This document shows positions 3,637 through 20,522 of a stretch of 35,026 nucleotides of DNA, piece by piece. The notes under the pieces were generated by a model. It was given only the letters and a program-made list of their open reading frames with translations. It had not been told where the DNA came from and did not search any database. The stretch lies in NCBI GenBank assembly GCA_016182385.1, contig JACPGV010000006.1:1-35026 (forward strand). Direction: 5' to 3'. This DNA comes from Candidatus Moraniibacteriota bacterium. GTDB lineage: Bacteria > Patescibacteriota > Minisyncoccia > Moranbacterales > UBA1568. The stretch's first letter is position 1. Each line of letters starts with the position of its first letter. A program made the translations under genes and the position numbers.

Positions 3637-4788
3637 ATGCTACGACAAGCCATTATTTCCCGTATCCCCCGAGGTGCTTTTCTTACTAAAGCTCCCGTTT
3701 TAAGCTTCTTCTTTCTTGTCGCGTTACTTTTTGGTTCTATCATGGCAAGCCACGCTCTCCGCAACGAAAAAATATCCGACGCTGTTTCATTGACCCAAGA
3801 AAAAAAGACTGTCTCTTTTTTTTCACCAAATAAAGATGTCGCCTTTATGACTGTACCGGCCCAAGTGCGAAAAACAAGCGTCGTAAATATTGTCGCCCTC
3901 ACCTCAGGCATCGTATCTTCTCTTTCCGTAACACCCGGAAAAAACGTCGCCGCCGGCCAGACACTCTTGAAAATAACGACGGATTATGAAAGCGACGCCA
4001 CTCATTTAAAAAAAGAACTTGCCAACAATCAGGCCGAACTCGCAAAGAAAACAACTTCTCTCAATAAGCGTATTTTTTCCCTTGAAGAAAAACGTATTCG
4101 TCAAAACGATACACTTACCGATACGGAAAAAAAATTGGCGCTTGAACAAATAACCAAAAACCGCGCTGAAAATAAAACCACTCTCAAGCAAAGTGTTTTG
4201 GAGCAATCACTGGCCTATCAAAACGATGCCGTACTCACACCAAAAACTTTTGTCAGCGGCACTGTTGAGCGTCTCGCCGTGCGAGAAGGCGACTTTGTCT
4301 TACCCGGCGATATACTGATAACAATACACGCTCCCGCACAAACAGCTACCCTCGAAACTCTGGTGAGCAGAAAAGTGGCGCTTTTGGTAGATGTGACCAA
4401 GTCAGCACGACTGACAATTGGAAGTGATACCATTGAGCTCCTTCCCTCCTATTTCTCACGTCAAGAAACAAAAGACAATCTCTATTCGCTCCTCTTTGTA
4501 TTATCTGAAACAACAAAGAATCGCATTGGAGACGGAGAATTTTTACAATTGGAAATCCCTTTGCGCCCAACAAACACTGATTCTTTTCTTGTTCCCATAG
4601 ACGCTATTTTCCAAACTGGAAACAAAACGACCGTTTTCGTCGAAGAAAACGGTACAGCCATAAGCAAACAAGTGACTGCCGGAAATATTTACGGAGAATT
4701 TGTGGAGATACTGTCCGGCATTTCTTCCGATACTCGCATCATTACTGATCGTTCCGTACTTTCAGGCGATATCCTCATAACACCTTAA
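3637..4788 (+). CDS. RND efflux periplasmic adaptor (HlyD/MFP) subunit
   Basis: N-terminal anchor, biotinyl-lipoyl-like GIVSSLSVTPGKNVAAGQTLLKI and VSGTVERLAVREGDFVLPGDILITI halves, coiled-coil region; immediately precedes the RND permease. Confidence 0.85.
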   Translation: MLRQAIISRIPRGAFLTKAPVLSFFFLVALLFGSIMASHALRNEKISDAVSLTQEKKTVSFFSPNKDVAFMTVPAQVRKTSVVNIVALTSGIVSSLSVTPGKNVAAGQTLLKITTDYESDATHLKKELANNQAELAKKTTSLNKRIFSLEEKRIRQNDTLTDTEKKLALEQITKNRAENKTTLKQSVLEQSLAYQNDAVLTPKTFVSGTVERLAVREGDFVLPGDILITIHAPAQTATLETLVSRKVALLVDVTKSARLTIGSDTIELLPSYFSRQETKDNLYSLLFVLSETTKNRIGDGEFLQLEIPLRPTNTDSFLVPIDAIFQTGNKTTVFVEENGTAISKQVTAGNIYGEFVEILSGISSDTRIITDRSVLSGDILITP

Positions 4789-4797
4789 ACCGTCTTT

Positions 4798-7700
4798 ATG
4801 GAGAAAGAGCCTTCTTTTCTTGATCGCCTCACTTTTGATGCGGCGCTCTACAAAACATTCATCGCCAAATATTTTTCCAATATTCGCGCCATTATACTGG
4901 TCGTTCTCACGCTCACCGTCTCAGGATTGGCCGCGTTTTTCACGCTACCAAAAGAACTCAATCCCGATATTAAAATTCCGATCGTCTTTGTATCCACAAC
5001 ATTTCCCGGCGCGAGCCCAGAAGACGTGGAAAAATTATTAACCATTCCTCTTGAAGACGCGGTAAGCGGTTTGAGCAATGTACAAAAAGTTTCCTCAACA
5101 TCACAAGAAAGCGTTTCTTTTCTCAACATCGAATTTTCTTCCGGTACCGATCCGCAAAAAGCCAAGGAAGATGTTCAAGGCGCCATTGATGGCGTTACCG
5201 ATATTCCGGAAAGTGCCGAATCATCAAAGGTACAGGTGCTTGATTTCCAAAATCAACCAGTCATTATTTTCTCCCTATCCGGAAAAGCTGATGAAGCAAC
5301 TCTAGAGCGATTTGCTGATCTTCTCAAAGACCGTCTGGATACTTTGCGCGACACGAAAAAAGTCGAGCTTTCTTATCGGAATGAACAAGACATCGTTATC
5401 ACCATTCGCCCAGAAAAAGTGCGCGAAAAAAATCTTTCTTTACAAACCATCGCTCAAAACATCGAAACGGCTATCGGACAATATCCCGGTGGGACCATCA
5501 GTACCGCCCGTACATCATTTGTTCTCACGCAAAGAGCGACCGTTCGTTCCATTGAAGAGTTGCGCACCCTGCCGATTTCCGTGCAAGACACGATTATTCC
5601 GCTTGGCATGCTTGCTGACATCTCTCTTCAAACGCCAAAAAACTCCGCTGTCGCTTACTACGGAGACAGCAAAACAACCCCACACAGAACCATAACTTTT
5701 TCCATTTTCAAAACTGATGAGGCCGATGCCACATCAACCGTACAAGAAGTTCTTGCTATCACTGAAAAATGGAACGTTCTCTACGGTAACCAATTCATTA
5801 TTGAGCCTATTTTTAACGGTGCCAAAGAAATAAAAAAAAGTTTCGATCAGCTTTTTCGTGATTTTGCCGTCACTCTCTTTTTGGTGTTCATCGTTCTCTT
5901 TATTTTTTTCGGTCTGCGACAATCCATCATCGCCGTTCTCGCTATCCCACTCACGTTTCTTGGTACCTTTCTCGTCATGGCCGGAAGCGGCATCTCCATA
6001 AATTTTATCGCTCTTTTTTCCCTTCTTCTTGCTTTGGGTATCTTGGTTGACAATGCCATCGTCATCATATCAGCAATGTCGAGCTATGAACGAGCTAAAA
6101 ATTTCCCCCCTCAAGAAACCGCCCTTCTTGTATGGCGTGATTTCCGCTCCGTTATTTTCACCACTACTATCACGACTGTCTGGGCTTTTTTACCCCTTCT
6201 TCTTTCTACCGGTATCATTGGCGAATTCATTAAGCCGATCCCTATCGTTGTTTCCACAGCCCTCTCTCTTTCCGCGTTCATTGCTCTTCTTATCGTTATT
6301 CCGGCTATGGCGTGGATGCGTCTCGGCACCATGCCTCGGCGCACTCTCCTCTTTTTTCACGGCCTTCTTTTCATTCTAGGGAGTGCGCTTCTGTTTCTTC
6401 TTATGCCGGAGGGAAATTTTCGCCTGCCCCTTTTCATTGTCGCCGGCATACTCCTCCTTCTTCTCGTCAAAACTCTGCACGCCTTTCGTGAAAAAATTCA
6501 CGAATACGAACAATGCCACTTTACAAAATTTTTTCGTCTCCTCCACAAGCTTTCCCAAAGCGGACTCTTCCAATTCGATCACTTAGCGCACCGTTATGAA
6601 CGCTTCATCTCGACCGTTCTCAACTCAAAGAGCGCTCGTCGAAAAACGCTTATCGGTCTCATTATTTTTTCTCTTTTTTCTTACGCTCTTGTGCCACTCG
6701 GATATGTCGTCAATGAGTTTTTTCCGCAAGACAATCAAGATACCGTCTACATCGGAGTTGAATTACCAAAAAACACCGTGCTCGAAAAAAGTAACGAGGA
6801 GCTTTTACGTCTCTTGGAAACATTTCGCACCCTCCCTGAAGTTCTTTTCGTATATGCCGAAATAGGCAATGTGATGCCTACCGATAACACGCCGGTCGTT
6901 GCTCGCGAGCATCATCGCCTACTCTTCACCCTTGCCCTTTCTCCTTCACACGAACGAGAAAAAACATCCGGGGAAATAGTACGGGAATTAAACGCTTCCT
7001 TCAGATCCTACAGCCACGGCATTCTTTCTGCCGGACAAATATCTGGCGGTCCGCCAGCAGGGAGCGATCTTGAGCTAAAACTTTCCGGCGACGATCTTTC
7101 TGTTTTGCAACAATACGCTGAAAATATTCAAGACTCTCTTCGTCAGACACCCGGAATAAGCAATGTTAAAATTTCCGTTACCAGCGGTTCAAGCAAAATA
7201 GTCTACGTCCCCCGTCAAGAAATACTTGCCCAAAACAATATCCGCCCCGATGCTTTAAGCGTTTTCCTTCGCACGCTCGGCAATGGATTCACAGTAAAAA
7301 ACGACGTTCGCTTTGCAGACGAAAAACAAGATATTCTCATCCGTTTCGTAGACAACGATACATCCGAACATCCGCAAGATCTTGGCCTTCTTTCTTATTC
7401 CGAAGGACAAAAAAATATTCCTTTGCTTGCTCTTGGTGATTTCATTCTGGAAACAAATCCGGCGCTGATCACTCGAGAAAATCAAAAGCGCACTCTTTCG
7501 GTTTCCGCTTCCGTAGAAAACGGGTTTTCCGTAAGCACGCTCAATACCGATCTCGAAAAACTGGCTGATTCTCTCAATCTTCCAGATGGTTATGCTTGGC
7601 AAACAGGCGGGGTAAATGATGAAAACAACAAATCAGTTCAGTCCATTCTTCAGGCTATGGTTTTGTCCGCCCTTCTTATCTTTGCTACCATGGTTATCCA

Positions 7701-8124
7701 ATTTACCTCTTTTCGTAAAGCTCTTATTGTTATTCTTGTTATTCCTCTGGCGATTTCCGGCGTCTTTATTCTTTTTGCGCTCTCGGGAACACCACTCTCT
7801 TTCCCCGCCCTTATCGGTGTTCTCGCGCTCTTCGGTATTGTTGTCAACAACTCCATCATTATGGTTGATAAAATCAACCGCAATATGGACTCCGGGTTAC
7901 CACTCAATCAAGCCATTGCCCAAGGAGCGGCCAGTCGCCTCGAGCCAATCCTTCTTACTGCCCTTACTACTATCGTAGGTCTTATTCCTATCACGCTTTC
8001 CGATCCTATTTGGCAGGGCTTGGGCGGGGCAATCATCGCCGGTCTCACCTTTTCAGGAATCGCCAAACTCTTTTTCATTCCGGTCATCTATCGCGTCTGG
8101 TTCGGAACAAAAGAAAGTGTTTAA
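4798..8124 (+). CDS. RND family efflux transporter permease (AcrB/ACR_tran type)
   Basis: 1108 aa; PNIxxP-like start (LNPDIKIPIVFVSTTFPGASPEDVE), duplicated TM/porter architecture, GILVDNAIVIISAM and FGIVVNNSIIMVDKINR signatures. Confidence 0.93.
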   Translation: MEKEPSFLDRLTFDAALYKTFIAKYFSNIRAIILVVLTLTVSGLAAFFTLPKELNPDIKIPIVFVSTTFPGASPEDVEKLLTIPLEDAVSGLSNVQKVSSTSQESVSFLNIEFSSGTDPQKAKEDVQGAIDGVTDIPESAESSKVQVLDFQNQPVIIFSLSGKADEATLERFADLLKDRLDTLRDTKKVELSYRNEQDIVITIRPEKVREKNLSLQTIAQNIETAIGQYPGGTISTARTSFVLTQRATVRSIEELRTLPISVQDTIIPLGMLADISLQTPKNSAVAYYGDSKTTPHRTITFSIFKTDEADATSTVQEVLAITEKWNVLYGNQFIIEPIFNGAKEIKKSFDQLFRDFAVTLFLVFIVLFIFFGLRQSIIAVLAIPLTFLGTFLVMAGSGISINFIALFSLLLALGILVDNAIVIISAMSSYERAKNFPPQETALLVWRDFRSVIFTTTITTVWAFLPLLLSTGIIGEFIKPIPIVVSTALSLSAFIALLIVIPAMAWMRLGTMPRRTLLFFHGLLFILGSALLFLLMPEGNFRLPLFIVAGILLLLLVKTLHAFREKIHEYEQCHFTKFFRLLHKLSQSGLFQFDHLAHRYERFISTVLNSKSARRKTLIGLIIFSLFSYALVPLGYVVNEFFPQDNQDTVYIGVELPKNTVLEKSNEELLRLLETFRTLPEVLFVYAEIGNVMPTDNTPVVAREHHRLLFTLALSPSHEREKTSGEIVRELNASFRSYSHGILSAGQISGGPPAGSDLELKLSGDDLSVLQQYAENIQDSLRQTPGISNVKISVTSGSSKIVYVPRQEILAQNNIRPDALSVFLRTLGNGFTVKNDVRFADEKQDILIRFVDNDTSEHPQDLGLLSYSEGQKNIPLLALGDFILETNPALITRENQKRTLSVSASVENGFSVSTLNTDLEKLADSLNLPDGYAWQTGGVNDENNKSVQSILQAMVLSALLIFATMVIQFTSFRKALIVILVIPLAISGVFILFALSGTPLSFPALIGVLALFGIVVNNSIIMVDKINRNMDSGLPLNQAIAQGAASRLEPILLTALTTIVGLIPITLSDPIWQGLGGAIIAGLTFSGIAKLFFIPVIYRVWFGTKESV

Positions 8125-9157: not shown

Positions 9158-9186
9158 TTGACTTTTCTCTTTTTTTGCGCTATAAT
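9158..9186 (+). promoter_or_regulatory. Near-consensus sigma70 promoter TTGACT-17-TATAAT
   Basis: -35 at 9158-9163, 17-nt spacer, -10 at 9181-9186; predicted TSS about 9193. Confidence 0.8.
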
Positions 9187-9192
9187 AGATAT

Positions 9193-9277
9193 GTTGAGAA
9201 ATGAAAAACGGGTGGCGACAATTTCTGTCGAAAACCCGTTTTTTCTTTCTCAACAAGGCTCAACCGTCGAATTGAGC
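9193..9277 (+). ncRNA. Structured 5' leader: long hairpin (9193-9254) plus second hairpin (9258-9277); leader or independent sRNA
   Basis: gttgagaaatgaaaaacgggt pairs with acccgttttttctttctcaac (2 mismatches) with inner cgaca/tgtcg; gctcaa/ttgagc forms the second hairpin. Confidence 0.5.
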
Positions 9278-9315
9278 TTCTAATAAAATAAAAATAACTA
9301 GTAAAATAAAATTCT

Positions 9316-9498
9316 ATGGAACCAGTCAAAATGGAAGAAGACACCACTTCACCTTCTTCCTGTTCTTCTGGACAGTGTCCTGAGTGCGAAAAAAGCGCTC
9401 AAGAGGCAAGAGAGAATGAAGAAATGAGTATGGCGTTTCTTTTGGCCCTCATGCCCGTCATCAGCCTCACCTTCTTTGGTCAAGTCGGCCTTTTATAA
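9316..9498 (+). CDS. 60-aa micro-protein: acidic, Cys-containing N-terminus and hydrophobic C-terminus (possible membrane peptide)
   Basis: MEPVKMEEDTTSPSSCSSGQCPECEKSAQEARENEEMSMAFLLALMPVISLTFFGQVGLL; bounded by a strong promoter/leader and a strong terminator. Confidence 0.6.
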   Translation: MEPVKMEEDTTSPSSCSSGQCPECEKSAQEARENEEMSMAFLLALMPVISLTFFGQVGLL

Positions 9499-9509
9499 AA
9501 ACCGACAAC

Positions 9510-9542
9510 AAAACCGGTGCTCATGAGGAGCACCGGTTTTTT
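9510..9542. terminator. Intrinsic terminator (13-bp stem, 5-nt loop), usable on both strands
   Basis: aaaaccggtgctc-atgag-gagcaccggttttttt-like hairpin with a T-run downstream. Confidence 0.88.
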
Positions 9543-9561
9543 GATACAAAATTTTTTTCAT

Positions 9562-12285
9562 TTATTGCGTTTCGCCACGACGTCTTTCAAGTAATCCATA
9601 CAAAAGTCCGCAGATAAAAAGTATCAAACCGACACTGACGAATATACGGAAGGTAAAAAGAATAGACGCTGGAAAATAAGAAGTAAGCGCGGCAAAATAC
9701 TTCTCAGGACCAAGCGGCGTGGCATAGGTAATAGCGGGATCGCGTAACTCAATCTGCGTGGCAATGCTCATATTTTTTTCCGCCGTATCAAAAGGAGAGA
9801 CGTTCCAGATAGCAAAAAGAGCGCGTCGAATATCGTCTGACTGTATGACGCGAGAAACAAAATCGAGACTGTAAATATCTCCCAAAGATCGATCGGCAGA
9901 AAATGTTATGGTTTGCGGATCCGTGCTCCCATCAACCCTCTCTCCATTGAGGCGCCATTCGCTGGTAGACATACTCTCGATATATGCCGGCACAAAACCC
10001 CGCTTGAAAGAAAGATCACTTCCGGCGTATGCCTCAAAAACCGTTTCACTAAAATGATCACAGAGATTATTGGCGCACTTTCCGGAAGAGCCCGAACTGC
10101 CGGTAATATCTTTGTACTGTCCCAAAAGTTTCGGCCACGCGACATTATTATTCGTCGAACGAATATACACCGACGGTTCAACAATACGGAATGTTCTCGC
10201 CATCGTTATATTTTTTCCCGACTGACTATCATTTGCCGTAACAGATACCGTATACGTATCTCCGACATTCCCCGTTACTGGAAAAAAGTTTACATTCGTC
10301 TGTTTTTCATCGGCGCATTCCGAAGATACAACCTTGGAACATACAAGTGGCTTCCCATTGATGGCCCACTGAAAGTCAGAAAGTCCTCCCGTATCAACTT
10401 TTACTCCGATGATATCATTTTTGATAATGGAACACACCGCCCGATCAGAAAGATCATTACAAATAGAATCTGAGGATTGGTCCAATCCAACGGTAATACC
10501 CCTCACTGTCTCCGTAATCGTTCTTACTCGATACGTATTTATTTTTTCCCCCGTAGAAAGAAATTTGACGATGACATCGCTCTTTCCCTTGCGAACGACA
10601 CCGGAAGAAAAATTTTCAACTGCATCCACACGAAAACGCAAATAGCCGACTCCTCCCGAAAGAAAATCTCCCAATTTCTTCTCGCTCGTACCAAATTCTG
10701 CCGTACGCTTGCTATTTTGCGGAATATTCAATCGCAGTTCGATAGTATTAAGACCATTTCCCTTGCTATTCCCCAAAAGCCCCCAATTTTGAAGCTCTTT
10801 CGTTATATTTGCTACGTTTCCACCGCTCGTAGCATCAAATCGGATGTTATCACTTATGGAGACATTCCATTCATAAAGAACCTCCGTGGCATTACGACCA
10901 ACATTACTTATATTGGCATACGCCACCACTGTATCACCGGCGGCGCTTTCGGTCGGATCATTTGTCGGGCTCTCCGGAGTAGCTGTCACACTTACGTCAA
11001 GATTGGAAGGCTGTCCACCTTCAGCCGGATCAATAAGGTTATTCTTCAAACATTTATTCATGTCTATATCCACTGTAGGAATACTTACTTTATAGCCACG
11101 AATAGTCTTGGTATATGCCCCCGTACCGGAAGCCTCAGAAATACTGCAATTATTTTTGGAAAAAGCCCACATAATCATGTTTGATCCATCATCATGCTTG
11201 GTAGGAAACATCGAGGTTCCTTCCACCGCGACTCCCACCTTGTCCCCGGAAACATAATTCCATGTAAAACTCGACTGTCCCAAACCAATCACATTCGCCT
11301 CGTCTTTATTGCCATTATCCGCCGTATCCGGATCATGGGGATTCGTTCCCCAAAAACGTTCTTCAGTTTTCCCAAAAACACCATCACCGCTTTTTGAGGC
11401 CTCGGGAAAAATATGCTTACAATAAGGTTTTGAATTACTCTCGGCTTGTGGTGTACAAGAGGAAAGAGCTGTTCCGCACGCCGTCGTTGATGGGTCGGCG
11501 ACACAACGTGGTGTTCCGGTCGAACAGCTTGCCGTACTTGTTTCTGAAGAACAAACGGGAAAACCGGCAAATTGGCATGTCGTCGAACTTGTAATGGTAA
11601 AAAAGTTTTCGCTCGGGTCATTGGAACCACTCGTTATCTCCTCTTCAGGAAGCATGCACGCGGCCGATGTTCCGCTCGGACAAGGGAACTCCGGGCTTCC
11701 GGTTGACTCGGCAAACTCATAATTTTTTCCACTCACATTGTCGTGAAAATAACAATGATCGACATGTCCTACTTTGTTATTTCCGCCGAAACGCGCTTTG
11801 TATCCATCATTATCATCATCAGAACCATAATTCGTATCGGAGCTGTCATACCCATTCTGAGCCAAAATACGCATAGCCTCTATCTTCCAATCTTCCTCAT
11901 CATATTTGCCATTATCATCATAATCACAAGTCTCCTTATCACAATCAACACGCTTGAGGTACCACGTATAATACAAATCATTCTCATTGTTGGAAAAATA
12001 AATAGGAAGAGCTTTCGCCGTTATTTTTTGCCCCTCTTTCGGGTCGGTCGGGTTGAAAAAAAGCGAAACTTCAGGTGTCATTTTCTTGTTACCCGATGTA
12101 TTAAATTCCTCTCCCTGATTTTGGATCGCCCCCAAATCAAGATGGTATCGTTTTTCAATATCACCCGCCATTGAAGAAGCGGATGGCATTTTAAATGCTA
12201 AAACAGGAGCCATCGGCTCTATCAAAAGAGCGCTCATCAAAAAAAGACTGAAAAAAAAATTTTGTTTTTTGAGAAAAATAGACAT
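9562..12285 (-). CDS. Large surface-exposed protein of the T4SS locus, with signal peptide, Ca-binding-type motifs and C-terminal TM
   Basis: 907 aa; N-terminal hydrophobic segment, DYDDNGKYDEED (EF-hand-like loop), DDDNDGY and GTNPHDPDTADNGNKDEANV (TSP3-like), Cys-rich block, C-terminal TM ILFTFRIFVSVGLILFICGLLYGLLERRRGE. Confidence 0.75.
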   Translation of the reverse strand: MSIFLKKQNFFFSLFLMSALLIEPMAPVLAFKMPSASSMAGDIEKRYHLDLGAIQNQGEEFNTSGNKKMTPEVSLFFNPTDPKEGQKITAKALPIYFSNNENDLYYTWYLKRVDCDKETCDYDDNGKYDEEDWKIEAMRILAQNGYDSSDTNYGSDDDNDGYKARFGGNNKVGHVDHCYFHDNVSGKNYEFAESTGSPEFPCPSGTSAACMLPEEEITSGSNDPSENFFTITSSTTCQFAGFPVCSSETSTASCSTGTPRCVADPSTTACGTALSSCTPQAESNSKPYCKHIFPEASKSGDGVFGKTEERFWGTNPHDPDTADNGNKDEANVIGLGQSSFTWNYVSGDKVGVAVEGTSMFPTKHDDGSNMIMWAFSKNNCSISEASGTGAYTKTIRGYKVSIPTVDIDMNKCLKNNLIDPAEGGQPSNLDVSVTATPESPTNDPTESAAGDTVVAYANISNVGRNATEVLYEWNVSISDNIRFDATSGGNVANITKELQNWGLLGNSKGNGLNTIELRLNIPQNSKRTAEFGTSEKKLGDFLSGGVGYLRFRVDAVENFSSGVVRKGKSDVIVKFLSTGEKINTYRVRTITETVRGITVGLDQSSDSICNDLSDRAVCSIIKNDIIGVKVDTGGLSDFQWAINGKPLVCSKVVSSECADEKQTNVNFFPVTGNVGDTYTVSVTANDSQSGKNITMARTFRIVEPSVYIRSTNNNVAWPKLLGQYKDITGSSGSSGKCANNLCDHFSETVFEAYAGSDLSFKRGFVPAYIESMSTSEWRLNGERVDGSTDPQTITFSADRSLGDIYSLDFVSRVIQSDDIRRALFAIWNVSPFDTAEKNMSIATQIELRDPAITYATPLGPEKYFAALTSYFPASILFTFRIFVSVGLILFICGLLYGLLERRRGETQ

Positions 12286-12291
12286 AGAATC

Positions 12292-12948
12292 TTATTGGAG
12301 AATAAGCAAAAATACGTCGGCGAGTAAAAGAAAGAGCCATTGGGTGAAAAAAGAATACCGAATCGATCCTGAACGATGAGCAATCCACGCGGAAAAAGGA
12401 CAAAAAAGAAAAAGCGCGAAAAGCGACCACGTTATCGAATCTTGCAAAAACATGGTGAGAAAAAAAAGACTCACGCCCACGCCCACCCCCCACAAACCAT
12501 TCTGACGCAACCACAACAACTGTACAAATCCACGAAAAAACATTTCATACAAAAATATGGTAAAGGGAACCAAAATCATCTCATACAAAACAAACCAGAG
12601 AAAATTCTTCTGTACGAAAAGAGGCAAAGCATACGCTTCTTTTATCTCGGGGAAAAGAAAGGTGGCGACAACGAACAAAAAACTGGCCACAACAAGAGAA
12701 ACCACGCCGGCAAAAATCCCTTCTCGCAACTCTCCCCAATGCCAACCGATATTTTTCAAGGACTCTTTTAATATCATTGTACAATAAAGAGTGGGAATCA
12801 CCAAAAAAAACGCGACTCCCACTACCGCCTCTTGAAAAGCAAGACTGAGCGTTTCGTTTCCGGAAAAGAAAATAATAAAACCAAGACAAAAAAACACCAA
12901 AAAACCAGTAACAAAAAAACGTCTATTGGTAAAAAAATTTTTTTCCAT
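12292..12948 (-). CDS. CPBP/Abi-like integral membrane protein with degenerate motifs
   Basis: Multi-TM; FLYEMFFRGFVQLLW resembles the CPBP EExxxRG motif but lacks the first Glu. Start placed at 12948 (MEKNFFTNRRF...). Confidence 0.55.
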   Translation of the reverse strand: MEKNFFTNRRFFVTGFLVFFCLGFIIFFSGNETLSLAFQEAVVGVAFFLVIPTLYCTMILKESLKNIGWHWGELREGIFAGVVSLVVASFLFVVATFLFPEIKEAYALPLFVQKNFLWFVLYEMILVPFTIFLYEMFFRGFVQLLWLRQNGLWGVGVGVSLFFLTMFLQDSITWSLFALFLFCPFSAWIAHRSGSIRYSFFTQWLFLLLADVFLLILQ

Positions 12949-12952
12949 AAAA

Positions 12953-13519
12953 TTATGTTGTTTCCGCGGGAACAGCTTGTTGTGCTTCACGCCAAGCCTT
13001 TCGCGCCAAATGATACAAAAGTACGACCATTGCCGTCTCAATCGGCATAAAATTAAGACCAAAACCGATTGCTTCGATCAGCCCGAATCCGATCACGACC
13101 AGTCCGCGCATGAGTTGCATATTGGATCGCGTTTGCTTGGAAGAGCTGTCAAACAAAGTAAGAAGCATCCAAATAAGAAACGTGAAACAAAGAGTGACGA
13201 CTGTCCCGATACCGGGAAATGAACCGATACCGACCAAATCCAAAAGATCCTTCAAAAGAGCGATGCAACCCACCCCCGTATAAAGAACTATCGATGGCTT
13301 TTTTCCGGTGAACTGCGCCGACGAAGCGTTTTTCCCTTGCCTATCCGTCACAGCTCTCCGATAAACATCATTGTATACTCTCTTTGCTTCACGCGCCCGA
13401 TCCAAAGGACGCAAACTGGACGTGCTTTTTGTGGTTGCGCTACGACCAGCGGCAGAAGTTGCTCCCCTGATGGCAGAGACTGCTCCTCTCGCGGCTTGAG
13501 CGATAACGGGAAGAACCAT
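12953..13519 (-). CDS. Hypothetical membrane protein within the T4SS locus
   Basis: 188 aa with hydrophobic segments (GIGTVVTLCFTFLIWMLLTLF, LMRGLVVIGFGLIEAIGFGLNF); tightly packed in the operon. Confidence 0.7.
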   Translation of the reverse strand: MVLPVIAQAARGAVSAIRGATSAAGRSATTKSTSSLRPLDRAREAKRVYNDVYRRAVTDRQGKNASSAQFTGKKPSIVLYTGVGCIALLKDLLDLVGIGSFPGIGTVVTLCFTFLIWMLLTLFDSSSKQTRSNMQLMRGLVVIGFGLIEAIGFGLNFMPIETAMVVLLYHLARKAWREAQQAVPAETT

Positions 13520-13530
13520 AAGAAAAAAAG

Positions 13531-15396
13531 TTAGCTGGCATCAAAATCCTGTTTTGCCTGTTCAATTTCCAATAATTGTCGCGGATCGGAAGTGATAATC
13601 TGGTCCTCACTATAAGAAGCGATCACCTTGATAGCGGCATGTTTCGATCCGGCGAAAAAAATCCCTTCTCCGACGTTACTTTCAAGCAAAAGAAATTTTT
13701 CATGATCCGTCAAATAAAACGTTTCCGACACCAGATCAATCGATGATGGCGATTGACGAAGCAAAAGTTGCATCGAGGAGTTGGTAATAATCGGTTTGCC
13801 ATACCGAGAAGACGCGAAATCACCAATATCCTGAGTGATCGTCGTCAGTCCCGTATAATACTTGCGACATCGTTTGGCCACGCCAAAAAGAAAAGAGGCG
13901 GCATCTTCATGTTGCATCATCACCCACGCCTCATCAACCACAATGATTCTTTTTTTCATTTTGGAACGAATTTCATTCCAAATAAATTGCAAAATAATAT
14001 ACATGGCTATCGGTCGCAACTCATCTTCCAAATCACGAATATTGAATACCACCAACTGATTATTCGTTTCGATATTCGTCTGCTTATTGAGGAACCCTCC
14101 AAAAATACCCTCCGTATATCGCTCCAGACGCGCCGCGAGTGATTCCGCGCCTTCCATATTCTGCAAAACGGCATACAAGTCGGACATCGTTGGAAAAGAT
14201 GACGCGGTAAGTGCCGAAAAATCCGTCGTTTCGGTAATATCCCGAATGGCGTATGATTCCCGAATGGCGCGATCAATGATCGAATCCTCCTCAGGCGTTA
14301 CCGAACCAAGCATCAAATGAAGTAATCCGATAATATTGGCAATCGTGTTGCGGAAAACCCCTTCACTGTCCTCGTCGTCACCTCCCTTTGGCAAATCAAA
14401 AGGATTGAGATGTACATCCGAATTAAGAGAAACCTTCAAGAATGTCCCGTCAACCGCTTCACAAAGATGTTTATACTCATTCTCCGGATCAACGATGATA
14501 ACACTCGCGCCAAACATCATCGAACGCAAAACCTCAAGTTTCACAGTATAACTTTTACCAGCTCCGGATTTGGCAAACACCACCATATTGGCATTTTCCA
14601 TTTTAAACCGATCAAAAAGCACGAGACTGTTATTGTGTCGATTGATTCCATACAAAATACCCTCATTAGAAGAGAGGTCCGAAGAAACGAACGGAAATGT
14701 CGTAGAAAGAGGTTCGGTATTTAAATTATTCGCCACGTCAAGCGTATCCATGGCAAGTGGTCGCGTCGCCGAAAAACCCTGATCCATACGCATAATGGCC
14801 GGTTTGGTATAGACGAGTTGCGCCTCAAGCAACGATTCCATCGCCTGGCATTTTTTTGACAAATCCTTTTCATCACTCCCATAAATCGTCATATAGATAC
14901 CAAAGCGGAAAAATTTTTCCGTCCCCTGTTGCAGCTTATCACGCAACATTTCGATATCCTCCAAGGCGGTTTCCAGTACGGGATCACGCACTTTGCCGCC
15001 CTCCGCTTCGATATGAATTTGCGACTGCACCTGCGTCGCTGATTTGCGCAAACTCTTGAGAATCTCCGCGGTCTCAATGGGATGAACAAACAAAGCCGTG
15101 TCCATGGCAAAATCAATATTGATAATCGGCGAAAACCAGTTGGTAGAAAGGTACCGCGGATACGCAATGACAAAATATGTCCGTGTCAACACATCTCCAA
15201 TCTGCATCCCGTTGGGATTGAGACGAATAGCCGGAGGAGCGATCAGATCCCGAATGGTAGCCACTCCCTTTTGGTAGAGCAACTCTTCCTCGCTCACTTG
15301 CGGTTGCGCAAACAAAGAAAATCCACCGTTTTTCTTTTTGTTCGTCTCGGCTTTTTTCTTTTCCTCAATATTCTGAAGAGAAATTCCTTGTGGCAT
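13531..15396 (-). CDS. VirB4-like type IV secretion ATPase
   Basis: Walker A VVFAKSGAGKSYTVK, Walker B RIIVVDEAWVMM, downstream TITQDIGDF and NSSMQLLLRQS motifs typical of VirB4/TraC ATPases. Confidence 0.93.
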   Translation of the reverse strand: MPQGISLQNIEEKKKAETNKKKNGGFSLFAQPQVSEEELLYQKGVATIRDLIAPPAIRLNPNGMQIGDVLTRTYFVIAYPRYLSTNWFSPIINIDFAMDTALFVHPIETAEILKSLRKSATQVQSQIHIEAEGGKVRDPVLETALEDIEMLRDKLQQGTEKFFRFGIYMTIYGSDEKDLSKKCQAMESLLEAQLVYTKPAIMRMDQGFSATRPLAMDTLDVANNLNTEPLSTTFPFVSSDLSSNEGILYGINRHNNSLVLFDRFKMENANMVVFAKSGAGKSYTVKLEVLRSMMFGASVIIVDPENEYKHLCEAVDGTFLKVSLNSDVHLNPFDLPKGGDDEDSEGVFRNTIANIIGLLHLMLGSVTPEEDSIIDRAIRESYAIRDITETTDFSALTASSFPTMSDLYAVLQNMEGAESLAARLERYTEGIFGGFLNKQTNIETNNQLVVFNIRDLEDELRPIAMYIILQFIWNEIRSKMKKRIIVVDEAWVMMQHEDAASFLFGVAKRCRKYYTGLTTITQDIGDFASSRYGKPIITNSSMQLLLRQSPSSIDLVSETFYLTDHEKFLLLESNVGEGIFFAGSKHAAIKVIASYSEDQIITSDPRQLLEIEQAKQDFDAS

Positions 15397-15407
15397 GATA
15401 GTAAATA

Positions 15408-16094
15408 TTATTTTTCCGAAGAAAGCTCGATATTCTCTACGTTTTTGATAACGGTCGTGGTAAACAAAGACGGATTGTAACTATTGTAAAGCAATTCTAT
15501 GATCTCTTCCGTATTGAGCTGCGTCACGCGCAAACCTGATCCGGAAAGCGAAGCGGCAATATGATCGACGCGTTGTGTGAGTTGCAATCGGTACGTATCA
15601 AAAAGATCCTCCCGCGTGTTTGCTTTTTTTGCCTGAAAAACACCCAGCATTTTTTCGAAAAACCCGCCCTGTTTATCTTCGACCGGCGAAAAAGGAATCA
15701 CCACATAAAAAAACTTGGACATGATACTCGACACCTCGGTCAAGTTCTTGATAAACGTCTTATATTCAGAAATCTGAAAACGGAGCAGTTCGTTTTCTTG
15801 TTTTTTTTCTTCCTCCTTAAGGCGCTCCAAATACGGATCAATATTAAACCGCCGCGAACTCACTATGATCTGCACCGGAAAATCAAGAGAGTTGAGAAAT
15901 GATTGGTACTGACCGATAATAGCATCCTGTTCTTCGCTTGATTTCAAGTCAAAATTAAGCGAAGACACAAGCAAAATACTCCGCAAAGCGCCATTTTTAA
16001 GAATAATGACTCCGTCACGAATTTCATCCACTTCCACGTACTTTTGTGTGCTGGATGCGCCTGTATTTTTTTTTGTTTTCAGAAGCTCCACCAT
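15408..16094 (-). CDS. TraC/VirB4 N-terminal-domain-like protein
   Basis: YVEVDEIRDGVIILKNGALRSILLVSSLNFDLKSSEEQDAIIGQYQSFLNSLDFPVQIIVSSRRFNIDPY; located between PrgI and VirB4. Confidence 0.75.
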   Translation of the reverse strand: MVELLKTKKNTGASSTQKYVEVDEIRDGVIILKNGALRSILLVSSLNFDLKSSEEQDAIIGQYQSFLNSLDFPVQIIVSSRRFNIDPYLERLKEEEKKQENELLRFQISEYKTFIKNLTEVSSIMSKFFYVVIPFSPVEDKQGGFFEKMLGVFQAKKANTREDLFDTYRLQLTQRVDHIAASLSGSGLRVTQLNTEEIIELLYNSYNPSLFTTTVIKNVENIELSSEK

Positions 16095-16133
16095 ATATTC
16101 CTCATGCGACTATCACGATAAAATTTTCTCAGA

Positions 16134-16541
16134 TTATTTTTTTCCTCGGCTATCCATGATGCGTGCCAACTCTTCCAGTTTTTCTCTCTCGATTCGTTTT
16201 CTTTCCGATCCCTGTTTATCGCCTGTTTCTTTTGCTTCCGTTTTCATGGGTGTTGGTCGACGTACGGGACGCTCCCACACCGACACCTTCGGTCGAAATA
16301 AAAATAATATTGAGTAAAAAATAAATGTTACCAGCGGAAAACCATTGGGGCGATAGAAAGCGAAAGCCACGAAAATAAGAACAATGGGGATGGCGGAAAC
16401 GATAAACATCGCTCCATCAAATACATTGAACGCGACCAAAAGAACGGCGCCCATACCGATCATCCACAAAAGCTGTCGCCACGTGAGCGGTCCGGCGATT
16501 TTGTCTTCAACATCGATAAATTGTGGAACGCTAAACATCAT
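16134..16541 (-). CDS. PrgI family protein (VirB3-like position)
   Basis: FSVPQFIDVEDKIAGPLTWRQLLWMIG N-terminus and two TM helices, then FRPKVSVWERP. Confidence 0.88.
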   Translation of the reverse strand: MMFSVPQFIDVEDKIAGPLTWRQLLWMIGMGAVLLVAFNVFDGAMFIVSAIPIVLIFVAFAFYRPNGFPLVTFIFYSILFLFRPKVSVWERPVRRPTPMKTEAKETGDKQGSERKRIEREKLEELARIMDSRGKK

Positions 16542-16582
16542 AGATCACGTATTTTTCATTATAACACAGGCGTCGAGATATT

Positions 16583-17761
16583 TTACAGATCACCTTCTTC
16601 AAAAGATCCCTGTCGTTCCGAAGAAAGTGCTGTGATACGAAACGGGCCATTTCCGGAAAAAGGTATCGCCTTCTTCGGTGTGGGTGAGATAATTTTTTCG
16701 GTCATTTCTTTTTCCGCCGGAAGAATATGCTTGGTAGAAAAACTGATACCCCCTCCCAAAGGGGGAGACGCTACTGGTGGTGCTACTGGCGATGCTAAGT
16801 CTTTTCGCGGCACAACAGGAAAGGCGGTTCCTCTTTGCATGACAATATCTCCCTCGGTATGATTCGGGAACGCTTTTTTTGGCGGAAGCGGGACGACTGT
16901 TTCCTCTCCCGCTCGTCGTACCGGAGAAAATGTAAAATGAACATCTTTTTCCTCTCCCACCTCCTTTTTCAAAGGAAGAAAACTCTTTGCCGAAGCGGAA
17001 AAACTCTCCTCAAAAGGCGGAAACACGATCTCTTGTCGCACCGTATCAATGGTGAGAGGAAAATTTTCTTCAATGGATTTCAACACGAAATTGACGTGTT
17101 CTCGATCTTCCGACGAAAGTTTTTTTCCGTTCTCCGAACGAAAAAGAAAATTGCCACGCTGAACACTGTCATGGTGTCCGACTCCCAATTCATCCCGGTA
17201 ATATTTGATCCAATTAACAAGCGACGGTCGCACCGGTGTTCTTTGTGTTTTCAGTTTAATTTTTTCCATCGTAATCGTCTGCTGACCAAGCATTTCATAC
17301 TGCGCCATTGCCTGAAGCAAGGGCAGGCTTACCGCCACTATTTGCGGTTTTTCCTCCTGTTCATCCTCTTCCGATTTCAATTTCGGTTTAATCGTCATAA
17401 TTTCTGTTCGGATGAATTCCGCGATTTCCCGTGCCTGATGAGGATCGCCCCCCATCGTCACGAGCACCGATCCGATTTTCGCTTCCGCCTGCTCTGGCGA
17501 CAACTCGCCGAAGAAAATTTTACGGATAAATAAACTAACGTATCCAATCGCCGTATCATTTAAACGAAAAAATTCTTGTATTTCTTCAACTTTATAAGGC
17601 AATTCATCTGATATCAGAATATCTCGAATTTCTTTCGACAAACCCTTAAACTTCTTCCAAAGCGCTCTTTCGTTATCTGGAGGCATCAAATCAGCCGTTC
17701 CTTCTTCAGAAACAAGCATCGGAAAATAAATGGTATGTTTGATTATTTCTTGCTTATTCAT
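16583..17761 (-). CDS. Hypothetical protein of the T4SS locus, basic/Pro-rich C-terminus
   Basis: 392-aa ORF between the VirB6-like and PrgI genes in the same operon; no family recognised. Confidence 0.75.
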   Translation of the reverse strand: MNKQEIIKHTIYFPMLVSEEGTADLMPPDNERALWKKFKGLSKEIRDILISDELPYKVEEIQEFFRLNDTAIGYVSLFIRKIFFGELSPEQAEAKIGSVLVTMGGDPHQAREIAEFIRTEIMTIKPKLKSEEDEQEEKPQIVAVSLPLLQAMAQYEMLGQQTITMEKIKLKTQRTPVRPSLVNWIKYYRDELGVGHHDSVQRGNFLFRSENGKKLSSEDREHVNFVLKSIEENFPLTIDTVRQEIVFPPFEESFSASAKSFLPLKKEVGEEKDVHFTFSPVRRAGEETVVPLPPKKAFPNHTEGDIVMQRGTAFPVVPRKDLASPVAPPVASPPLGGGISFSTKHILPAEKEMTEKIISPTPKKAIPFSGNGPFRITALSSERQGSFEEGDL

Positions 17762-17782
17762 ACGTTCATTAATAAGACTACC

Positions 17783-19693
17783 TCAGGGTAAATCTGCCAG
17801 AATCTTCTGACGCCTTGAATCATTCGTGCCTGCCAATCCTGTCACATAATTGTTAGCCGCTCCCTGATTTACACTACCAGCCTTAAAAAGATCCTGCTTT
17901 GCCACATCTTCACTTTTCATTCCTTTCAAAATATCATTAACGGCATGGTCGCGAGAAAGTCCCGGATTCGCATCAATCTCAACTTCGACCAGAATATTCG
18001 TTTTTCCTTCTTTTTTAAGCTTCTTATCAAGCTCTTTCTTCACTTCTGGACCAAGAGCGGCCATATTCTTATACTGATCCAAACTCATTCCATCAAGTGC
18101 CTCTCCCTTCGTTTTCTTAATAAGTTCCTTAATTTTTTCCGCCTGTACATTGGCATCAGGATTTGCGGCTTTAATCGCTTCTATCGCATTGTGTAATTCA
18201 TTCGCATTATTAAACTTCTCTTTCTTTAAAAGAAGATTGGCCGCTGCTTCTTTTTCTGCTGCACTATACTTTTTGCTATTTGCAGGATTGATTATCTCTT
18301 TCATCGCGGTTTCGCTCGTACGCATTTCTTCCATTTCTTTTTCCTTTTCAGCGACTTTCTTATTGTGTTGATTTTCAATAACCCTCGCTTTTCCATCAGC
18401 TCCACCGGACGCATAGCCTTTATATTGCTCTTCTTTTTTCTTACTTATATCAGAATACGTCTTCGGCATGACCCATTTAGCAATCTTACTGTTTTCTGCG
18501 CGTTCTTTTAATCCAGCCGCTGTACCACGTGTCCAAGCATTATTCGTTATCGGATTATTATATGTCTTCTTCCCCATCCACTTGGCGAATTTTTCTCCCT
18601 TACCCGATATCGTACCTGCGCCGGCGATAGAAAATTTATTGGCAAGACCGATAGTAAACCAAAGCAAAACAATAGGGATGGCATATGTGGCTATGGCCGT
18701 AATAAGAGTGGTGCTATTGTGGGTGCTATTCTGGGCGGCAACCGACTGAACACTCTTGAAAATTTCATCACCTTTCATCTCCTGAAGAAACCGCACGCTT
18801 ATAAGCATCATGAGCATGGCCGCCGGACCAAAAAGCGCGTATTGCCAAAAATTATCCCACCACATTTTGGAATACTTCTCCATTCCGGGAATAATTGACG
18901 CCGCAAATCCAACCGAAGAAAAAATAACAAGGATAAGAAGAGCTATCAGCCGCACCACCATCATCGCCGCAAGGACGAGAAAAGAAACGGCCATGATAAA
19001 AATAAAAACTATACCCAACAAAATATCTGAAATATCAGGCCCACTTCCTTTCCCCTTCAAAAGAATATTCTCAATTTTTGAAGCGGAAAAATAACTCCCC
19101 AGTCCGCCCGATCTATCTAAAGAGGTGATTTGATTGGCAAAAAAATACATCGGCACATTGGTCGCGTCGATAAGCACACGCGAAACGGGAAAGCTAAAAT
19201 TCACAAAAAGTGCCGCCAAAACGAGACTCAGCAAAGCTTTCTTGAAATCCTTCTGAATCTGAAAAACCACCGTAAAGGCGATATACAAAAGAGTAAGAAT
19301 AAAAAAAAGATTAAAAAAATCCCGTACGAATTTCCATAAATCATAAACGCTCTGCAAATTGAAAAGCTGGGCGACATGGTCCGGTCTGATGGCATAATTA
19401 AAAAGCGTGACTGCGGCAGTCAAAAAAATAGAAAATAACAAAAAAATACTATAAAGAATTTCTTTAACGACAGCAACTATCGGGGAAAATATGTCCGTCC
19501 AAGACCAACCACCAGAAGATGGTTTTACTGGGTCATCAACGTAGGGCATATATCCATCAGAAAGTGATTGAGCATTTACCAACTCACTGCCACCAAAAAA
19601 TAAGAAAAGAGAAAAAACAAAAAAAAGAGCCACAAAAAAACCGTAAAAATACTGTCGCTGTTTTTTCTTTTTTTGTTCACCCAAAAAGTTCAT
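17783..19693 (-). CDS. VirB6/TrbL-like polytopic membrane protein
   Basis: Signal peptide, many TM segments, long charged cytoplasmic-like C-terminus; first gene of the T4SS operon. Confidence 0.75.
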   Translation of the reverse strand: MNFLGEQKKKKQRQYFYGFFVALFFVFSLFLFFGGSELVNAQSLSDGYMPYVDDPVKPSSGGWSWTDIFSPIVAVVKEILYSIFLLFSIFLTAAVTLFNYAIRPDHVAQLFNLQSVYDLWKFVRDFFNLFFILTLLYIAFTVVFQIQKDFKKALLSLVLAALFVNFSFPVSRVLIDATNVPMYFFANQITSLDRSGGLGSYFSASKIENILLKGKGSGPDISDILLGIVFIFIMAVSFLVLAAMMVVRLIALLILVIFSSVGFAASIIPGMEKYSKMWWDNFWQYALFGPAAMLMMLISVRFLQEMKGDEIFKSVQSVAAQNSTHNSTTLITAIATYAIPIVLLWFTIGLANKFSIAGAGTISGKGEKFAKWMGKKTYNNPITNNAWTRGTAAGLKERAENSKIAKWVMPKTYSDISKKKEEQYKGYASGGADGKARVIENQHNKKVAEKEKEMEEMRTSETAMKEIINPANSKKYSAAEKEAAANLLLKKEKFNNANELHNAIEAIKAANPDANVQAEKIKELIKKTKGEALDGMSLDQYKNMAALGPEVKKELDKKLKKEGKTNILVEVEIDANPGLSRDHAVNDILKGMKSEDVAKQDLFKAGSVNQGAANNYVTGLAGTNDSRRQKILADLP

Positions 19694-19889: not shown

Positions 19890-20522
19890 TCATAGGCCAT
19901 CTTCCACACTCAATCGTTTTAGTTCCGACCGAATGTATTCATCATCAATTTGAAACCCCGGACGAAATGAAACCGCTTCCGAATAATCAATATCCTCAAA
20001 ATATGCCAATGCCGCGCGAAAAACCTTCTCATTAAATTCATTTCCGAACATCATTTCAGCTCTTTTTATTATCTCAACAAGCGTATGAGATCGTGAAAGT
20101 ATAAAATACAAATCGATATAATCCTTCCATTTTGATCGACGACCAAGCGCGTAGGCCTTCATAGCGGCAAGCGTCAAAAGATCCGGCACTCGTGCAATAT
20201 CCTCAAATAAAAGAAATTTATCAAACGGGAATGGATAACACAAAAAAGTTACTTTTACACCTCGCACAACCACCGTATATTCATCCTCATTTTTTACAAG
20301 AACGCTAAAATCTTTATCAACTTCTGAAAGTTTCTTTCGAAGTATATTGATATTGAGATCATCGGTCGTAAATAAATCAAAATCTATAGATTCCCTATGT
20401 CCAATATGGAGAGCAATCGCCGTGCCTCCACATAAAAAGAATTTTGGACAAAAATTCTTGATAAGAGGAAAAAGCGCCTGCTGTGACGAAGAAAAAATTT
20501 CTTTATGAAGCATGGTGATCAA
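19890..20522 (-). CDS. AbiEii/AbiGii-type nucleotidyltransferase toxin-like protein
   Basis: FFLCGGTAIALHIGHRESIDFDLFT and LLTLAAMKAYALGRRSKWKDYIDLYFIL motifs characteristic of the AbiEii family. Confidence 0.85.
   Translation of the reverse strand: MITMLHKEIFSSSQQALFPLIKNFCPKFFLCGGTAIALHIGHRESIDFDLFTTDDLNINILRKKLSEVDKDFSVLVKNEDEYTVVVRGVKVTFLCYPFPFDKFLLFEDIARVPDLLTLAAMKAYALGRRSKWKDYIDLYFILSRSHTLVEIIKRAEMMFGNEFNEKVFRAALAYFEDIDYSEAVSFRPGFQIDDEYIRSELKRLSVEDGL

Follow-up and report, generated by a model that had tools for sequence, protein, structure and literature searches.

A promoter-hairpin leader shared by an orphan microprotein gene and cell envelope genes in Moranbacteria

The microprotein unit and its gene family

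The window, that is, the whole stretch of 35,026 nucleotides that was analyzed, lies on contig C11 of a 776-kb Moranbacteria genome (G000). At 9158-9542 it holds a small self-contained unit, which is flanked by two genes on the opposite strand. The following features were assigned to the unit.

9158-9186, plus strand: sigma-70-type promoter, TTGACT (9158-9163), 17-nt spacer, TATAAT (9181-9186), with 11 of 12 consensus matches
9193-9254, plus strand: leader hairpin 1, beginning at the predicted transcription start
9209-9248, plus strand: terminator-like core of hairpin 1, a CGGGTG...CCCG stem (9209-9238) and, 3' of it, the U-tract TTTTTTCTTT (9239-9248), with a terminator score of 17.6
9210-9214, plus strand: signature GGGTG on the 5' side of the hairpin 1 stem, from leader conservation
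9258-9277, plus strand: leader hairpin 2 with the loop motif GUCGA, from folding and the comparison of relatives
9316-9498 (stop codon included), plus strand: gene for a 60-aa microprotein with a CxxC motif, a charged helix and a C-terminal hydrophobic helix, from the ORF, its conservation and dN/dS
9510-9542, plus strand: 3' intrinsic terminator, with a terminator score of 33.8

A preliminary description of this DNA had listed an isolated unit with a near-consensus promoter, a 62-nt hairpin starting at the predicted first nucleotide, a second hairpin, a 60-aa ORF with a Cys motif and a hydrophobic C terminus, and a strong terminator, and each of these parts was found where it had been placed. 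Hairpin 1 folded at -32.0 kcal/mol (z -8.2), and none of 200 shuffles was as low. The second hairpin was present but weaker (-5.5 kcal/mol, with 8 of 200 shuffles as low), and the stem of the 3' terminator near 9510-9540 reached -23.0 kcal/mol (z -8.2). TTGACT-17-TATAAT had the top promoter score within 11 kb in a simple scan. The same region contained 21 promoter-like sites versus 16.7 ± 4.1 expected by chance, indicating that the window promoter is unconvincing when taken alone and that its weight comes from conservation and not from the consensus match. The strong expression ascribed to the unit in the preliminary description would be in keeping with these sequence signals.

Elsewhere in the window, a gene for an HlyD-like membrane fusion protein is followed by an AcrB-type RND transporter gene (3637-8124). 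The minus-strand cluster at 9562-19693 encodes a TraG/VirB4-like P-loop ATPase (13531-15396) and several proteins without a Pfam match, and is possibly a type IV secretion-like system. An AbiEii-type nucleotidyltransferase domain is encoded at 19890-20522, and its gene is a possible part of a type IV toxin-antitoxin pair.

Relatives of the microprotein were detected in 42 of 57 related genomes by a single-sequence search. The profile matched in 95 of the 131 genomes of the order and in 81 of 105 good genomes, and in a phylum sample of 380 genomes its only matches were in three genomes, all of the same order. At the sensitivity of the profile search used, the family thus looks order-specific. 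Across the order, the gene was mostly present as a single copy per genome. In an alignment of 30 rows, one Cys was kept in all sequences and the second in at least 90%, and the C-terminal segment of the type AFLLALMPVISLTFFGQVGLL was also retained. The dN/dS ratio proposed earlier as a check on the ORF was determined within the genus and its close relatives for pairs with dS below 2; the median was 0.22, and the last 24 codons gave 0.09, indicating that the ORF is translated and under selection.

No Pfam or NCBIfam family matched the microprotein at cut-off. NapE and a transposase zinc-binding domain of Pfam showed a weak likeness to the short transmembrane segment and the CxxC stretch, respectively, both far below cut-off. 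The AlphaFold model was a single long helix (residues 22-57) of low-to-medium confidence, with a mean pLDDT of 67, and offered no additional hint. The product is probably a small membrane-anchored CxxC protein of Moranbacteria. The open-access literature yielded no account of the microprotein or of Moranbacteria small proteins.

The neighboring genes were loosely conserved. In the genus of the window genome a cyclophilin lipoprotein gene adjoins the unit, and a gene for a FlgJ-like hydrolase (cluster c3) was a recurrent neighbor, present at 8 of 29 named loci. In two genomes (G034 and G103), the microprotein gene had no leader of its own and was located downstream of a 251-aa gene that carries one. 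The microprotein locus of another genome (L063 in G050) was without GGGTG.

Conservation and terminator character of the leader

In nearly all relatives the microprotein leader had the same order, namely TTGACN, a 17-nt spacer, TATAAT or TATACT, and then the hairpin. Among the 91 leaders with a promoter call, the spacer was 17 nt in 88, and the hairpin began no more than 5 nt from the predicted start in 77. GGGT was invariant in all 64 aligned microprotein leaders. The nine-pair helix was paired in 93.9% of the cells of this alignment, and the covariation suggested earlier as a check on hairpin 1 was detected, with 43 cells changed on both sides versus 12.2 ± 2.9 in shuffles. The pairing signal was best at slide 0 and was destroyed when the partner was shifted by one to three columns. 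The 5' strand with GGGUG was constant while the 3' strand varied within the pairing rules, indicating that sequence and structure both seem to be constrained.

Confinement of the hairpins and the ORF to this contig, named beforehand as an outcome that would count against the preliminary description, was not observed. The ORF and hairpin 1 extend far beyond the contig. Hairpin 2 was kept mainly inside the genus, where the GUCGA loop was constant and the stem had substitutions on both sides. GGUCGA elements resembling hairpin 2 were also seen 3' of hairpin 1 in a few genomes of families f4 and f5. All nine leaders in which the GGGUG hairpin lies at least 18 nt from the start had an extra 5'-terminal hairpin. 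One relative, L010, has a fold in which the 5' strand pairs with the beginning of hairpin 2. Among the leaders examined, neither an alternative antiterminator pairing of the core nor a conserved leader ORF or leader peptide was found.

Terminator scores above 0 were obtained for 70 of 86 leaders (median 17.8), for 43 of 85 3' regions of the same genes and for 1 of 81 upstream stretches taken at random. The arm that follows the GC stem was 78% T and 5% A, and the opposite 5' arm was 57% A and 15% T. A plain AU helix does not need such a strand bias. A leader terminator is the simplest reading. On the other hand, the A/U asymmetry could stem from a preferred initial transcribed sequence, and good termination may require a hairpin more distant from the promoter than one at 20-60 nt from the start. 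The earlier idea that hairpin 1, with its U-rich arm, could be an attenuator or a 5' stabilizer is supported.

At the microprotein leaders, a promoter, an intrinsic terminator and an ORF follow one another in the order that defines an attenuator. The element was nevertheless not filed under a described attenuator class, since no antiterminator or leader peptide was found; an antiterminator that depends on a bound protein may nevertheless operate. Some leaders were only 32-45 nt in total, which leaves no room for an aptamer plus an antiterminator. In the window, no Rfam family reached its gathering score, and only unrelated families scored, below threshold, over the unit. No description of such a leader was found in the open-access literature. 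GGGUGA reads as the reverse complement of a segment at the 16S 3' terminus; an anti-Shine-Dalgarno role was considered and set aside, as no start codon lay at a conserved distance.

Occurrence of the element before other genes

A model of the promoter and hairpin, R1, was built from the 64 microprotein leaders. R1 matched in every genome of the order (131 of 131) at E values up to 1, a loose threshold that includes chance matches. At E values up to 0.001 in a class-wide sample, each matching Moranbacteria genome had one to six matches. Copies were found before other genes, and the idea of a leader peculiar to the microprotein was therefore dropped. This reuse of the leader module is a feature that the preliminary description did not foresee. 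The 75 further copies examined had a limited set of genes downstream, encoding the following products.

MurA (TIGR01072, above cut-off)
CAP-domain proteins of the YkwD type (PF00188, above cut-off)
Short membrane-anchored FlgJ-hydrolase-like proteins (weak likeness, below the cut-offs, with E 2e-4 in NCBIfam and E 0.15 in PDB)
Large secreted surface proteins that carry the motif INKQINFQGKVVN and weakly resemble the Bdellovibrio mosaic adhesive trimer family
An iron alcohol dehydrogenase, and several unassigned products

At L223 and other loci with the surface-protein motif, the similarity was to the N terminus of the Bdellovibrio mosaic adhesive trimer (NCBIfam E 4e-4, below cut-off).

GGGTG was present in all 50 leaders of other genes, which had been picked with a model that rewards GGGTG. 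The helix in these 50 leaders had 31 cells changed on both sides versus 11.6 ± 2.5 in shuffles. A second model, R2, was built from the leaders of other genes only, without the microprotein leaders and without the promoter, and it recovered the window hairpin with an E value of 1.6e-4 in 481 kb, and also as its best match in the window's own genome. In the named loci and those of the window's own genome, 44 strict promoters were found, of which 24 had GGGTG within 70 nt, all in microprotein or murA leaders; the own-genome loci came from R1 matches and are not a random sample.

The window genome has two clear copies of the element, the window leader and one before murA (C2:124255). Only one copy was recovered there with a strict hairpin pattern, because the murA leader deviates from that pattern. 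R1 matches in this genome that were weaker than about 1e-5 look like promoters without a hairpin. Outside the order, the R1 matches at CAP genes look real, and four others (L333, L334, L336 and L337) do not. A different conserved terminator-like RNA, GACGAAAAGGGATCCGAACGGCTAATTACCTAAGGAGCCCTTTTT, follows a strong promoter at C7:31629-31717 of the window genome (L198) and was also seen at L333 and L336. Related sequences occur in genomes from other families in the class, and Rfam gave no match there.

Loci were also collected by protein search. FlgJ-like proteins were gathered over the order independently of the RNA, and 30 loci were fetched. The element was present at 24 of the 26 loci of the short type (E up to 9.3e-4) and at none of the four loci of longer paralogues. 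The two element-free short loci (L312 and L318) are both from family f10, in which the microprotein is also absent. CAP proteins were gathered over the class with a query that was itself a CAP gene found via R1, so that the test is independent for the other loci and not for the query. Among the best 12 CAP loci from lineages outside the order, 11 had an element match (E up to 0.005), and at ten a GGGTG/GGGTA candidate or a match was directly visible upstream. CAP homologues from other families gave no convincing element match. At 30 murA loci, the element was located 250-450 nt upstream in about nine and before an upstream CAP gene in three more. With about 12 of 30 loci in all, its association with murA is patchy. 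The element thus recurs before murA, CAP, FlgJ-like hydrolase and surface-protein genes across the order, and one further lineage of the class has it as well.

Genomes of family f10 (e.g., G061 and G062) were without the microprotein, and two of them had no leader on the FlgJ-like gene. The leader-microprotein system may have been lost in this family.

The unit had earlier been suggested as a possible sRNA, dual-function RNA or regulated micropeptide. Its product is a genuine microprotein. With purifying selection on the ORF and the hairpin present at many different genes, we do not favor a pure sRNA or a dual-function RNA confined to this locus.

Proposed function and comparison with known systems

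The reading that we favor, with moderate confidence and on the basis of sequence comparison, is that the element is a shared leader terminator (attenuator) on envelope and surface genes, including the one-gene microprotein unit, that read-through is set by a factor recognizing GGGUG, and that the 5' stem is protective. Transcription would start at about 9193 from a promoter that is predicted to be strong in vivo, and the nascent RNA would fold at once into the hairpin, with GGGUG on its 5' strand and the U-tract after it. With a 5' hairpin and a U-tract, a fraction of the polymerases should terminate some 55-60 nt from the start, and read-through would yield the microprotein mRNA. A putative trans-acting factor, either protein or RNA, would recognize GGGUG in the nascent leader and set read-through simultaneously for all genes that bear the element. 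Such a factor would explain why one strand of the hairpin is fixed. The pairing at the 5' end suggests that the stem may additionally protect the RNA. KhpB/Jag was a tentative lead for the binding factor and was set aside; the literature search gave no usable motif.

More tentatively, termination control may operate regulon-wide in Moranbacteria, and likewise in one or more further lineages of the class. The GGGUG factor would then admit polymerase into cell-wall, adhesion and microprotein genes together, and the switch could be tied to host attachment or growth.

The hairpin might instead only shield mRNA 5' ends from pyrophosphohydrolase and RNases at envelope genes that are highly expressed, with neither termination nor a specific factor. 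This would fit the short distance between stem and predicted start, at most 5 nt in most leaders (77 of 91), as well as the extra 5'-terminal hairpin in every leader with a distant GGGUG hairpin (9 of 9). However, a pure stabilizer needs neither the one-sided U-rich 3' arm nor terminator scores that equal or exceed those of true 3' terminators, and, as far as conservation speaks to function, it does not need the invariant GGGUG either (GGGT in 64 of 64 leaders and GGGTG in 50 of 50). We consider stabilization alone rather unlikely. Less probable still is that the promoter and hairpin form a gene for a trans-acting RNA of 45-65 nt with a GGGUG seed, the downstream gene being reached by read-through. 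The strong predicted promoter and terminator, the frequent position of GGGUG at the loop edge and the several copies per genome would all suit such an RNA, but the copies stay tied to particular genes, including the case collected by protein search only, which a cis element fits better.

A ligand-binding riboswitch or an RNA switch with two structures is very improbable. Structured leaders before functionally related genes, the hairpin 2 loop that is constant in the genus and the alternative fold of L010 would agree with it; however, the shortest leaders (32-45 nt) leave no space for an aptamer and a platform, the loop is variable, and no Rfam riboswitch matched. Hardly credible is a type I toxin-antitoxin gene, in which a small hydrophobic peptide is encoded by a structured mRNA. 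The small protein with its C-terminal hydrophobic helix and the structured leader are reminiscent of such genes, but the microprotein is mostly single-copy across the order and under purifying selection, the leader is common to murA and other enzymes, and a crude scan detected no promoter-like site on the minus strand over 9158-9545.

Gene regulation in Patescibacteria is almost unexplored, and a leader terminator of this kind would be a regulon-level RNA element in the group, with sequence, pairing and gene content as its defining traits. Through it, an orphan microprotein that is conserved becomes linked with murA, peptidoglycan hydrolases, CAP proteins and large surface proteins. The proposal predicts a short leader RNA and GGGUG-dependent read-through, for which existing metatranscriptomes could be used as a test. 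The element also provides a handle for finding the trans-acting factor, and the absence of the microprotein from family f10 could aid that search.

Attenuators with an intrinsic terminator and a protein regulator include the BglG/LicT-type and TRAP-type leaders. The element resembles these in having a promoter, a terminator-like hairpin in the leaders of several related genes, and a conserved stem sequence that a factor could bind. It differs from them in the position of the hairpin at the extreme 5' end and in its GGGUG signature, and no antiterminator that overlaps the hairpin was detected. In the 5' mRNA-stabilizing stem-loops of the ompA type, the stem lies a few nucleotides from the 5' end, as it does here relative to the predicted 5' end. 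Unlike these, the element has an invariant GGGUG on one strand, a U-rich 3' arm, good terminator scores and an envelope gene set; the constraint on its sequence does not fit a pure 5' stabilizer. Among the proposed members of the regulon, MurA and the CAP/YkwD proteins are supported by family searches, and the FlgJ-type hydrolase weakly so. The FlgJ, CAP and MurA families are themselves ordinary, and the shared leader is the new part.
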